IMG/VR virus record: IMGVR_UViG_3300009124_000005
Location: 1-64,000 of that record
Reading direction: 5' to 3' (one strand)
Source: a virus
DNA: 64,000 nt
This document shows, piece after piece, positions 20,282-36,009 of the stretch; position 1 is the stretch's first letter, and every line of letters begins with the position of its first letter. A program made the translations under genes and the position numbers. Below the pieces are notes generated by a model that saw only the letters and a list, made by a program, of their open reading frames with translations, did not search any database and was not told the origin of the DNA.

Positions 20282-20295
20282 TAAGATGATATAAT
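20267..20295 (+). promoter_or_regulatory. Sigma-70-like promoter abutting a terminator
   Basis: TTGACT, 17 bp, TATAAT; predicted start near 20302 lies in the left arm of the terminator. Confidence 0.7.
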
Positions 20296-20296
20296 G

Positions 20297-20319
20297 GGGG
20301 TCTTTAAGACCCCTTTTTT
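20297..20319 (+). terminator. Rho-independent terminator
   Basis: GGGGTCT-TTA-AGACCCC followed by six T, 2 nt before the next ATG. Confidence 0.8.
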
Positions 20320-20320
20320 C

Positions 20321-31431: not shown

Positions 31432-31458
31432 GCTAAATATAGATGGACCAACTATTTT

Positions 31459-31465
31459 TATTTAG
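31459..31465 (-). promoter_or_regulatory. Late promoter box CTAAATA (minus strand)
   Basis: 28 nt upstream of the gp4 start. It lies inside a 5' extension of the divergent gene's frame, which argues against starting that gene at 31443. Confidence 0.6.
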
Positions 31466-31511
31466 CGTGTCATTAGATACTTTCATACAATCTATTGCTA
31501 AACAGGGGGGG

Positions 31512-32189
31512 ATGTCCTTCTCTAATGGTTATGATGTTGAGTTTAATCTTCCGAATAAGGATGAGAAAAAAGGTAGTGGGTTAGGGTTAACCGACTACCT
31601 TAAAGAAAAATGTGGTATTGAAGGCATTGGTGGGTCCACTAATGCAACTAATATGGGTGGATTAGTTCAGATGCTTTGTGATGAAGCACAACTTCCTAAT
31701 GTACAGGCAGCAGTAGGACAGTTGAGTGGTAGAGTTATGGGAGAAAGTCAGATTAGTTATCCATATGCCAGATTTTACAGTGATTTGTCACTCACATGGA
31801 TGTGTGATGCTAATATGATACCACTCAAATTTATTACGGGTTGGCATAACTATATCTTTGATGGTAATCAAAATGATTCTCCTATCAATAAGGAGAAAAG
31901 TAATTTAGAGGCAGTAAAGAATACACAACCCAATCCAATAACCAGAGCGATACGACTGAAATATCCTGAACAATATATGTGTCAGAAGGTAAAAATTACC
32001 AAAACTGAAAAGGGTAGATCCGCTCCTAACTCCCGAGTACCGATTAGTTACATCTTGGAAAATGTTTATCCATATTCTATTGATTCTATTCCGTTGTCCT
32101 ATGGTACTTCACAGATCACCAAGGTAACTGCTAACTTTTACTATCAAAAACATACTGTTGTTCTTAACGATGGTACTGATCAACACTAG
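31512..32189 (+). CDS. 54: Tail-tube-fold baseplate protein (gp54-like)
   Basis: 225 residues from the ATG after a G run (MSFSNGYDVEFNLPNK). GESQISYPYARFYSDLSLTWMCDANMIPLKFITGWHNYI and ENVYPYSIDSIPLSYGTSQITKVTANFYY fit the gp19/gp54 tube fold. gp54 starts tail-tube assembly on gp48. A longer frame to 31443 overlaps the minus-strand late promoter. Confidence 0.65.
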   Translation: MSFSNGYDVEFNLPNKDEKKGSGLGLTDYLKEKCGIEGIGGSTNATNMGGLVQMLCDEAQLPNVQAAVGQLSGRVMGESQISYPYARFYSDLSLTWMCDANMIPLKFITGWHNYIFDGNQNDSPINKEKSNLEAVKNTQPNPITRAIRLKYPEQYMCQKVKITKTEKGRSAPNSRVPISYILENVYPYSIDSIPLSYGTSQITKVTANFYYQKHTVVLNDGTDQH

Positions 32190-32297: not shown

Positions 32298-33011
32298 ATG
32301 GCATTACCTAAACTTGGCGTACCTACGTATGAACTTACGTTGCCTTCTACCGGGAAAACTGTAAAATATAGACCATTTCTTGTTAAAGAAGAAAAAGTAC
32401 TACTTTTAGCATTAGAATCTGATAATGAGAAAGAAGTAATTACTGCTGTAAAAAACACATTGCGAGCATGTGTATTATCTAGAGTAAAAGTTGATCAACT
32501 ACCATCATTCGATCTGGAGTACCTATTTCTTAAGATTCGTGCTGCTGCTGTCGGTGAAGTTATCGAAATGACGGTAACTTGTACTGATGATAACGAAACT
32601 CAAGCAAAAGCATCAATCAATATTGATGAGGTTGAGGTAAAGAAAGATGATAAGCATAGTAGAAAGATTATGCTTACAGACGATATGGGGATTATGCTCA
32701 ATTATCCAAGTATGGATAGATTTATTGAATCGCAGTTTCTCAACAAAGATTTAGATCCAGAGCATATTTTCAACTTTATTGCTGAACATATTGAGCAAAT
32801 TTTTGATGGTGAAGATGTATATGATTCTACAACTACCACAAAGAAAGAGTTTCGTGAGTTTGTTGAGGGGTTGACCAGCAAACAGTTTGAAGCAATTCAA
32901 AACTTTTATGAGACTATGCCTCGCTTACTACACACATTTAAGGTGTTGAATCCTAATACTGGTAATGAATGTGAGTATACTATTGAGGGATTGCAAAGTT
33001 TTTTCGCATAG
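32298..33011 (+). CDS. 26: Baseplate hub assembly protein gp26 (tail-chaperone-like)
   Basis: 237 residues. MALPKLGVPTYELTLPSTGKTVKYRPFLVKEEKVLLLALES is the T4_baseplate (gp26) pattern, followed by a C-rich-free helical domain (IFNFIAEHIEQIFDGEDVYD; KKEFREFVEGLTSKQFEAIQNFYETMPRL). It ends on a slip site and lies directly before the tape measure gene, the place of tail assembly chaperones. Confidence 0.85.
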   Translation: MALPKLGVPTYELTLPSTGKTVKYRPFLVKEEKVLLLALESDNEKEVITAVKNTLRACVLSRVKVDQLPSFDLEYLFLKIRAAAVGEVIEMTVTCTDDNETQAKASINIDEVEVKKDDKHSRKIMLTDDMGIMLNYPSMDRFIESQFLNKDLDPEHIFNFIAEHIEQIFDGEDVYDSTTTTKKEFREFVEGLTSKQFEAIQNFYETMPRLLHTFKVLNPNTGNECEYTIEGLQSFFA

Positions 33012-33035
33012 CGGTCTTCCAGAATAGTTTGGAGG
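32999..33035 (+). promoter_or_regulatory. Putative -1 frameshift signal gp26 to gp51
   Basis: T TTT TTC (32999-33005) in the gp26 frame, two codons before its stop, then a stem CTTCCA (33016-33021)/TGGAGG (33030-33035) 10 nt downstream. Confidence 0.65.
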
Positions 33036-33196
33036 GCTATTACAAAACTAACTTTGCTTTGATGCAGTACCATAAATACTCTTTGACGGAGATTGAACAC
33101 CTCATGCCGTGGGAAAGAGAAGTTTATACTGCTCTTCTAATTCAACATATTCAAGAGGAAAAGAAAAAAGCAGAGGAAGCAAAGGCTCGTAGATGA
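33005..33196 (+). CDS. 51: gp51-like frame, probably read by -1 frameshift from gp26
   Basis: 63 codons after the slip site: FRIAVFQNSLEGYYKTNFAL, then YHKYSLTEIEHLMPWEREVY and a basic/acidic helical end QEEKKKAEEAKAR. MPWERE-type motifs are typical of T domains of tail chaperones and of gp51, the hub assembly catalyst. No ATG with a ribosome site: TTG 33029 and ATG 33062 are the only internal options. Fusion with gp26 would be about 299 residues. Stop overlaps the tape measure start (ATGA). Confidence 0.7.
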   Translation, partial: RIAVFQNSLEGYYKTNFALMQYHKYSLTEIEHLMPWEREVYTALLIQHIQEEKKKAEEAKARR

Positions 33197-36009
33197 ACTT
33201 CAACACCCCAGCACCAAAAGATATCGTAAGATGGTATAGGAAAGGTGTGCCTGGTGGTGGACAGAAGGATCGCATCTTTGATAGATTAAAAGCAAAGTTA
33301 ACTGGCGGCACGGATGATAGTGGCACCAGTTACTTTTCTATGTTGGAGAAGAAACTCTCCGATAAAGATGCTGATATAATTATCAAGAATATGAAGAAGG
33401 ATATCGATGGATATCCTATGTTTGAGACTGGTAGTACCAGTGGTCAGGATGAGAGAACATATCAAGAATGGATTGTTGAGAGATATTTAAAAACGGCTGG
33501 TACGGAAGGATTTACTGATACATCTGTTGCTGAAGAAAAGAAAGAAGAAGAAGTAGAAGAAGAAGCAGAAGAGATTGTAGAGGAAGCAGAAGAAGAAGTA
33601 AAAGAGAACATTGAAGAAGCAGTTGAGGTAGTAGACGAAGTAATAGAAGAAGCAGATGTATCGGAAGAAACGGGCGATATATCAGACATTACAGATATTT
33701 TACCGCAATCATTTATCGATGCAGTAAATCAAAAGCAAGGAACAGATTATCAAAAGACAAAGAAATCTACTGGGGTATCAAACACCAAGATTTTATCAAC
33801 ACTTGTTGGATCATTACAAAAAATCCAAGGACAACTTGGTAGTATTGATAATGAACTGAAAAAGCAGAATGCTCTTATTGGTGCTGCGTTAGGGACCACT
33901 GTAAGCAATCTTAATCAGATTGAGACCAGTCATGATGGTCTTAATGATAGATTCGATGGTATTCTAGAAGCATTTGAAGCACAGACCGCATTAAAGAAAA
34001 AAGAACTTGATGATGCAGAAATTGATGCTGCTATTGATGAACAAGACGATGTTATTGATGCTGCAGGAACAGAAGATATAAAAGGTTTTGATCCTAGAAA
34101 AGCGGGATCACCTGGTTATATTACTGGGTGGATTAAGAAAGCTCTTGGTAAACTATGGAAAAAATTTGCTCCTAAAAAAGTACGAGCGATTGTTAGACTT
34201 TTTAGAAATAAGTTAGCAAAATTTGCTCCTAAAAAACTTATACAATCTGTAACAAAAAAAGCACTTGGTATTAGTGCTGATGCTGGTAGACGTGGTGCTC
34301 AAAGAGTTGTAACTAGAAGTGCATTACAGATAGGAGGTAAGAAATTAGCCCAAGCAGGTGCTGTTAAAGCAACTCAAGCATTTGTTAAGAAAGCAGCATT
34401 AGGATTGATGCGTCCTATTATAAAACGCATCCCTATCTTTGGTGGATTGATTGATTTTGCTGTCTCACTGATGTTAGGAGAACCTGTAGGTAGAGCAGCA
34501 GCAAAAGCAGTGGGTGCTACTCTTGGTGGAGTTTTAGGAACGTTCATCCCCATTCCATTTGTTGGAACTGTTATTGGTGGTGTTCTTGGAGATATGGTGG
34601 GTGGATTCTTGTATGATGCACTGACTGGCGGGGGTGGTTCTACACCTAAAAAACAAGAAACCCCACAACAGAAAGAAACTGGTGGTTTAACAAAACCTGG
34701 ACCTGCAGTATTACATGGTACTGAAGCAATTATTCCTGCAGATCGGTATGAATCTGGTACAAAGAATCAAGATATGACAGGCAACGCACTGTCGCCTATT
34801 GGTGGAGCATTGATTGGAGCATCTGCTAACTTCTTGACACAAGCAGGACCAGCAGCATCTTTAGTTGCTCCTATGTTTAAGCAATCTGCCAACGCATTGA
34901 CAAAGTTCTTTGATGTACCTGCAACACTCGCACAGACAAATGTTGGTGGATCATTTGCTGGTATTGATACTACGATAAAAGATGCTAAAAAGAAGAGTGA
35001 TGATGAAGAGAATATAAATCCAGATGAGTTTGGACCTGAAGGTGGAATAGCAGAAGAAAAAATGCTCGATAAAATGAAGGGTGGGGTGACCGGATTCTTT
35101 GGTGGTATGCTAAAGTTATTTGGCATAAGAATGCCACCCGAAGTTGACGTTAATGATGATGATGGTAATGGTGGTAAATTTGGAGGAAATGGTAAGTTTA
35201 TTCAGGGCAACTCTGGAGCGTCTGGTGGCATACATTATCATATTGGTCCTGGTAGTTATCAAGATGGAAATATTACCTCTTCAGCTGGTAATGCTGATGC
35301 AAGAGCAGTAGCAGAAAAAGTAGTTAAGCATTTCCAAGGTAAAAAGAGTATCTACATTGGTAGATTGGGGTACACTGTTAAAGAATCTGATACCCCAGCG
35401 ATTATCAAAGAGAAAGTAAAACGAGGACAGGAGGTACATAGTTCTGGTCGTGGGTCACAAGGTGGTATTGACTTGCAGATTGGTGGTGCATCATATCCTG
35501 GAGCAAAAGTTCCTTTCCCATTAAAAACTGAAGGTCTTAAGTATCGTACTGGAGGTTTTGGTGTAACTGCTAAAGTTTCTGGTTCAAATGCATTTGTAGC
35601 ACATGGACTGTATGATGAAAATGGTAAGCAAGCACCACAAGAAGACAGTGTAGTATATGGTGAAGGTGGGGATACTCCATCAGTACCAACACAGATTGTC
35701 GTTGGTGATAGAGGAAAAGAAAAGGTTATGAAAAACCTGGTTGCTTCTTTTAAACCAGTATCTGATATGCTTGATGCATTTAACGCAGCACAGTCAACAG
35801 ATGAGGTGATTGCTGCCACTAGAGCATATGCTCCTGAAGTTCTTATGTATGATGATGATGAAGAGGGTGGGATGGGACAACAGATTATTGTGGTAAATAA
35901 TACACCACCTATGGCACCGATGCCTATGGGTGGTGGTGGTACTATAGTAACAAGAAAACCTACTACATCAGCATCAAAAACTTTACTGATGCAAAAACTA
36001 TTTGCTTGA
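33193..36009 (+). CDS. 29: Tail tape measure / hub protein (gp29-like)
   Basis: 938 residues. Acidic coiled-coil region (EEEVEEEAEEIVEEAEEEVK, about 115-150), further coiled coil, basic KKALGKLWKKFAPKK, a hydrophobic stretch (IPIFGGLIDFAVSLMLGEPV; GGVLGTFIPIPFVGTVIGGV, about 415-470), then TGGLTKPGPAVLHGTEAIIP, a motif seen in tape measure proteins. Sets tail length and is expelled at infection. Position after gp26/gp51 supports the call. Confidence 0.8.
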   Translation: MNFNTPAPKDIVRWYRKGVPGGGQKDRIFDRLKAKLTGGTDDSGTSYFSMLEKKLSDKDADIIIKNMKKDIDGYPMFETGSTSGQDERTYQEWIVERYLKTAGTEGFTDTSVAEEKKEEEVEEEAEEIVEEAEEEVKENIEEAVEVVDEVIEEADVSEETGDISDITDILPQSFIDAVNQKQGTDYQKTKKSTGVSNTKILSTLVGSLQKIQGQLGSIDNELKKQNALIGAALGTTVSNLNQIETSHDGLNDRFDGILEAFEAQTALKKKELDDAEIDAAIDEQDDVIDAAGTEDIKGFDPRKAGSPGYITGWIKKALGKLWKKFAPKKVRAIVRLFRNKLAKFAPKKLIQSVTKKALGISADAGRRGAQRVVTRSALQIGGKKLAQAGAVKATQAFVKKAALGLMRPIIKRIPIFGGLIDFAVSLMLGEPVGRAAAKAVGATLGGVLGTFIPIPFVGTVIGGVLGDMVGGFLYDALTGGGGSTPKKQETPQQKETGGLTKPGPAVLHGTEAIIPADRYESGTKNQDMTGNALSPIGGALIGASANFLTQAGPAASLVAPMFKQSANALTKFFDVPATLAQTNVGGSFAGIDTTIKDAKKKSDDEENINPDEFGPEGGIAEEKMLDKMKGGVTGFFGGMLKLFGIRMPPEVDVNDDDGNGGKFGGNGKFIQGNSGASGGIHYHIGPGSYQDGNITSSAGNADARAVAEKVVKHFQGKKSIYIGRLGYTVKESDTPAIIKEKVKRGQEVHSSGRGSQGGIDLQIGGASYPGAKVPFPLKTEGLKYRTGGFGVTAKVSGSNAFVAHGLYDENGKQAPQEDSVVYGEGGDTPSVPTQIVVGDRGKEKVMKNLVASFKPVSDMLDAFNAAQSTDEVIAATRAYAPEVLMYDDDEEGGMGQQIIVVNNTPPMAPMPMGGGGTIVTRKPTTSASKTLLMQKLFA

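Follow-up and report, generated by a model that had tools for sequence, protein, structure and literature searches.

The tail assembly chaperone genes of phage lambda shift frame at the slippery heptamer G GGA AAG, and in the frameshift cassette of E. coli dnaX a Shine-Dalgarno (SD)-like sequence lies about 10 nt upstream of the heptamer with a hairpin downstream, a combination typical of bacterial -1 frameshift cassettes. In T4-like phages, tail assembly chaperone genes were reportedly identified by Vladimirov, Gautam and Davidson in 2022 (Virology 566:9-15). The lambda gpG/gpGT pair and the chaperones of other long-tailed phages come in a short and a long form that share a start, the long one arising from a -1 shift shortly before the first ORF ends (Xu, Hendrix and Duda, 2004; PMC5009743), and genes of this type lie between those for the tail tube and the tape measure protein. 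The Atkins review describes this G-T frameshifting as conserved among long-tailed phages, with T4 excepted (PMC5009743). In the PRFect paper, Vladimirov et al., 2022, is the source given for T4-like phages that have a short gene plus a long one that is already fused, in place of a frameshift (PMC10885494), and the paper on phage Adele refers to it for poly-T frameshift signals in the TAC-N genes of T4-like phages (PMC12846349). For the Vandenendeviridae and Andersonviridae (phage Adele; PMC12846349), a -1 shift is placed near the end of TAC-N at a T-rich site (GTTTTT motif), the downstream ORF often being misannotated as a separate gene. Cyanophage gp51, in turn, has been described as lacking the first ~200 residues and as having ~20% of the T4 length (Sullivan et al., 2010; PMC3037559).

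We analyzed the gp26/gp51 locus in a 64,000-nucleotide stretch of viral DNA (positions 1 to 64,000 of IMG/VR record IMGVR_UViG_3300009124_000005; hereinafter the window), which an earlier note had read as a frameshifted tail assembly chaperone pair. The heptamer, the coding capacity of the -1 frame, the T4 fusion, the hairpin, the SD-like element, the predicted fold and the gene order all support that reading and, as judged from sequence and structural models, gp26 and gp51 very probably constitute a single tail assembly chaperone gene whose long product depends on programmed -1 ribosomal frameshifting (Table 1). As in lambda, the predicted products are a short and a long form with one start and a -1 shift near the end of the first ORF, and the order of tail tube-like protein, gp26, gp51 and a 938-aa probable tape measure protein equals lambda V-G-T-H; the G/GT position claimed in the earlier note thus stands as regards gene order, with the tape measure identity tentative. 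The gp26 ORF (237 aa) ends in AGT TTT TTC GCA TAG, where T TTT TTC occupies the X XXY YYZ register of the gp26 frame, confirming the slip heptamer that had been proposed and differing from the lambda heptamer in sequence. After a -1 slip, reading would resume at CGC 33005 and end at TGA 33194-33196 (236 + 63 = 299 aa); translation across the junction (...QSFFRIAVFQ) bore out the claim that the slip opens straight into the gp51 frame. The absence of a convincing gp51 start codon was likewise upheld: from the upstream stop, the -1 frame of the window has no ATG, GTG or TTG until TTG 33029, the first ATG is at 33062, and neither has a convincing SD match before it (-2.2 and +2.1 kcal/mol, respectively). 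In-frame T TTT TTC occurs only twice in the 18,405 codons of window ORFs of at least 100 aa; the other occurrence (20314-20320), near the start of an ORF at 20294, is probably due to chance.

Table 1. Features of the gp26/gp51 locus and its flanks in the window.
Feature	Position	Strand	Evidence
Tail tube-like protein, directly upstream	31443..32189	+	PF23849 Phage_TTP_2 1e-47
gp26 ORF, predicted short tail assembly chaperone (TAC-N, lambda gpG counterpart)	32298..33011	+	PF12322 T4_baseplate 8e-69; phrog_150 6e-78; AlphaFold residues 1-85 match 2ob9, Z 7.8
Predicted 299-aa fusion, join(32298..33005, 33005..33196)	32298..33196	+	Collinear with T4 gp51
SD-like GAGGG, 9 nt 5' of heptamer; probable dnaX-type stimulator	32985..32989	+	Anti-SD pairing; GAG codon bias
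T TTT TTC slippery heptamer, predicted -1 frameshift site	32999..33005	+	In register at 187/191 loci; TTT TTC in 80/80 of cyanophage-like set
gp51 (-1 frame) extension, 63 codons + stop; predicted long-chaperone C-terminal domain (TAC-NC; T part of lambda gpGT)	33005..33196	+	phrog_634 1e-27; third-position diversity
gp26 stop codon TAG, one codon past heptamer	33009..33011	+	
Downstream stem-loop, 11 bp including G-U pairs, 4-nt loop, 7-nt spacer	33013..33038	+	MFE -13.5 kcal/mol, z -3.82; 110-locus structure peak; covariation in related clades
Probable tape measure protein, 938 aa, overlaps end of gp51 frame	33193..36009	+	Position, length; weak tape measure phrog match, 0.0026

Using scans seeded with an alignment and with pf16, Moby, KVP40 and VAP7, we widened the set to 191 scorable gp26-family loci from cyanophages, from phages of Pseudomonas, Sinorhizobium, Vibrio and Stenotrophomonas, and from uncultured phages. 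T TTT TT(C/T) is in register at all but four of them (T6C in 153, T7 in 34), in counts that are inflated, the loci being phylogenetically related and not independent trials, although the tree still spans deep, well-supported branches. The conservation check that the earlier note had suggested gave the same result, with all 80 nearest IMG/VR relatives (97-48% identity) keeping T TTT TTC at the same place. In 29 uncultured-phage loci, the gp26 stop lies 31 nt and not 10 nt after the start of the heptamer, i.e., the stop has shifted 21 nt downstream and the heptamer is unmoved; the short chaperone of these loci (L131, L146, L158, L161-L174 and relatives) gains seven residues with the slip site fixed. 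The Aeromonas phages AS-zj (L197) and avDM6 (L198) have no annotated gp51, yet in both of them the heptamer is present along with a -1 extension that contains an MTPFEF motif; Aeh1 is an Aeromonas phage as well, and its published lack of gp51 may stem from incomplete annotation. The four loci lacking the heptamer are two copies of VAP7, one of K397 and L191. The last is 99% identical to Moby (L190) and has T5 in place of T6 at the slip run, which breaks the end of gp26; this is probably a homopolymer sequencing error. VAP7 (a member of the Ackermannviridae) and K397 are distant relatives. In VAP7 (L089), K397 (L088) and Kuja (L199; Ackermannviridae, as VAP7), the heptamer is absent and the -1 extension is open; the sequence before the stop is GTT TTT CGC, CTT TTC AAG or CTT TTT CAA, resembling the GTTTTT of Vandenendeviridae. 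These phages may employ a single-tRNA slip or, in VAP7 and K397, reinitiation at TAATG.

Codon choice at the slip site sets it apart from other sites encoding the same residues. Phe-Phe is written TTT TTC at 87 of 90 slip sites (TTT TTT at the rest) as against 38 of 364 other Phe-Phe pairs in the same loci, and the codon before it has T in third position at all 90 sites, whether it encodes Ser, Asn, Asp, Ala or Gly. Because the Phe-Phe codons differ elsewhere and the preceding residue varies, protein constraint does not explain the heptamer. Codons 235 and 236 (TTT TTC) are synonymously invariant in 80/80 cyanophage-like rows, and in that set codon 3 of gp26 alone ranks above them in excess synonymous conservation. 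This Leu codon (32304-32306) is TTA in 73/80 loci, and no other codon of gp26 is as strongly conserved at synonymous level (z 5.5), perhaps reflecting accessibility of the start region. A chance origin of the heptamer is ruled out by its conservation at 187 of the 191 loci, the Phe-Phe codon control and the synonymous invariance; a sequencing error behind the frame break of the window is likewise ruled out, the break being common to its relatives.

The heptamer is flanked by candidate stimulators on both sides. Averaged over 110 loci, predicted RNA structure hardly departs from background within gp26 and rises to a sharp peak in windows starting 5 nt past the heptamer (mean -8.4 kcal/mol, mean z -2.0), with individual folds placing stems 5-8 nt downstream of it in most loci; several, e.g., S-PM2, P-SSM7, L124 and L125, have no strong hairpin there. 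For the window itself, the 6-bp stem at 10 nt given in the earlier note had to be revised to one of 11 bp, 7 nt past the heptamer (-13.5 kcal/mol, z -3.8 against shuffles). No one hairpin fits the whole alignment of 110 loci, since pairing registers differ between clades, and covariation was therefore tested clade by clade. A 30-row clade defined by the protein tree showed 11 double-change cells (0/500 shuffles) and a 14-row clade two (4/500 shuffles), whereas covariation was weak in the clade of the window (40/500 shuffles). Upstream, we found an SD-like GAGGG that the earlier note does not mention: between -18 and -6 of the heptamer, pairing with the anti-SD averages -6.65 kcal/mol over the 110 loci as against -0.75 at random gp26 sites, and it reaches -4 or better in 90% of loci versus 8% of random gp26 positions. 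In the GAGGG column, GAG accounts for 65 of 74 Glu codons versus a 28% GAG background. This element is a probable frameshift stimulator of the dnaX type, with its sequence and position, like the hairpin on the other side, recalling the dnaX cassette; the two differ in gene and heptamer, and the shift truncates the dnaX product while it would extend the protein here.

We further asked where protein-coding constraint begins in the -1 frame. Diversity at its three codon positions between the heptamer and codon 14, i.e., before any ATG, is 0.09, 0.16 and 0.39 in the clade of the window and 0.19, 0.15 and 0.35 in a second clade, a pattern indicating protein-level constraint that sets in at the heptamer, ahead of any start codon. 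Moreover, many loci have a -1-frame stop a few codons upstream of the heptamer, in several directly against it. Given these stops, the coding that begins at the heptamer and the fixity of the heptamer where the gp26 stop moved, translation of the -1 frame needs a change of frame either on the heptamer or immediately beside it. In one large cyanophage clade, an ATG is frequent at the third codon past the heptamer (73/187 loci overall, many of them cyanophage relatives), and clades bearing it could make a free gp51 peptide alongside the fusion. Such dual output is compatible with frameshifting and does not apply to the window; we regard it as improbable, since this ATG has no SD and lies within the 11-bp stem in much of the clade. 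The same ATG speaks for the alternative that gp51 is a separate short gene with its own initiation, or with termination-reinitiation at the gp26 stop, as the database annotations have it (ATG at codon 3 in S-PM2, 19 in S-CAM3 and 33 in P-SSM7) and as TAATG or TGATG at the stop in KVP40, Moby and VAP7 could allow. However, the annotated starts vary from phage to phage and leave conserved residues out of the protein; the codon-3 ATG has an SD in range in 0/56, sits in the hairpin and falls at a hydrophobic position occupied by M, L, V or I; and both the clade of the window and that with the stop at +31 have no ATG before codon 14-43. Separate initiation would also leave unexplained the invariance of the heptamer and the onset of constraint there, and we consider it very unlikely. 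Least credible is transcriptional slippage, in which RNA polymerase adds a base on the T6-T7 run present in all but four loci to give the same fusion, as bacterial RNA polymerases generally require longer runs to slip efficiently, 153/187 loci keep the C that ends the run at six, and the SD-like element and 5-8 nt hairpin spacing are ribosomal features.

Programmed -1 frameshifting within one chaperone gene also accords with the relationship of these proteins to those of T4. Both T4 gp26 and T4 gp51 match PF12322, and T4 gp51, a single ORF, matches the gp26 family over residues 1-201 (4e-52) and the gp51 family over 147-246 (1e-23), by which it is the natural in-frame equivalent of the predicted fusion. 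Of 1,339 phage records with relatives of T4 gp51, 1,334 match at least 80% of the query at a single place. The T4 proteins are thus homologous to those of the window, with T4 gp51 ending in the gp51 domain; they differ in being encoded by two genes on opposite strands, the short gene 26 and the long, already fused gene 51, where the window has one gene and a frameshift. A second gene in the T4 manner was not found, gp26 and gp51 each being single-copy in the 91.7-kb record, which is a fragment. The shortness of cyanophage gp51 relative to T4 would follow from its N-terminal part being encoded by gp26 and joined by the frameshift. Window gp26 matches its family profile over the full length. Within its own frame, window gp51 spans the C-terminal half of phrog_634 (56-118 of 121); a Pfam search with it gave nothing convincing, and NCBIfam had no match for gp26 or gp51. 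The profile of gp26 found no relative among the sequences of solved structures. Its AlphaFold model (pLDDT 85), compared with the PDB, hit only three entries at Z of at least 4: the HK97 tail assembly chaperone 2ob9 (Z 7.8 over 84 residues, 4.3 A), 3fgx (Z 7.6) and then an unrelated chain (Z 4.3). Both of the first two have been described as phage tail assembly chaperones (PMC9603447). The match is moderate, with Z just under 8 and coverage of residues 1-94, and suggests with moderate confidence that gp26 has the TAC N-domain fold, differing from 2ob9 in the uncovered region that follows residue 94 of its ~237 aa. A model of the gp51 domain gave no useful match in the PDB (only 3hfh at Z 4.0).

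As we infer them, the slippage, its efficiency, the partners of the two forms and their role in tail assembly would be as follows. Most ribosomes would read gp26 to TAG 33009 and release the 237-aa short chaperone; in a minority, the tRNA-Phe in the P and A sites on U UUU UUC would slip back by one base, yielding a long chaperone of 299 aa that ends in the 63 residues of gp51. Pairing of GAGGG with 16S rRNA and the downstream hairpin would set the rate of slipping. Following the lambda precedent (gpG/gpGT), the short form would coat the tape measure protein, whose gene is adjacent, the extra domain of the long form would recruit tail tube subunits, and both would leave before the tail is completed. 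We hold at about even chances a broader proposal, in which marine T4-like phages set the ratio of the two forms through the SD-like element, U UUU UU(C/U) and a hairpin rebuilt in at least three registers with its spacing kept, and the T4 lineage swapped this cassette for duplication and in-frame fusion.

The proposed frameshift is a case of a known mechanism and not a new one. Among its nearest counterparts, the Vandenendeviridae and Andersonviridae share the -1 shift near the end of TAC-N, the T-rich site and the downstream ORF annotated as separate, and differ in phage family and in having GTTTTT in place of T TTT TT(C/T). The link that the earlier note drew from gp26 and gp51 to the frameshifted chaperones of other tailed phages holds as an interpretation and is weaker as a claim of newness: as far as Vladimirov et al., 2022, can be judged from the papers that cite it (PMC10885494, PMC12846349), which credit it with T4-like chaperone genes, the core claim has probably been published at least in part, and that work probably covers cyanophages. 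Among the papers searched, which included the Atkins review, the PRFect and Adele papers and Sullivan et al., 2010, none describes the heptamer of the cyanophages, its hairpin or its SD-like element. Hundreds of cyanophage records name gp26 and gp51 as baseplate hub subunit and hub assembly catalyst, with gp51 starts that vary or with gp51 missing, and reading the two as one frameshifted tail chaperone gene would correct this baseplate annotation. It would also offer a testable account of how the ratio of two chaperones is set in abundant marine phages and, with the gene pair of T4, would point to an evolutionary exchange between a frameshift and a pair of genes, in either direction.
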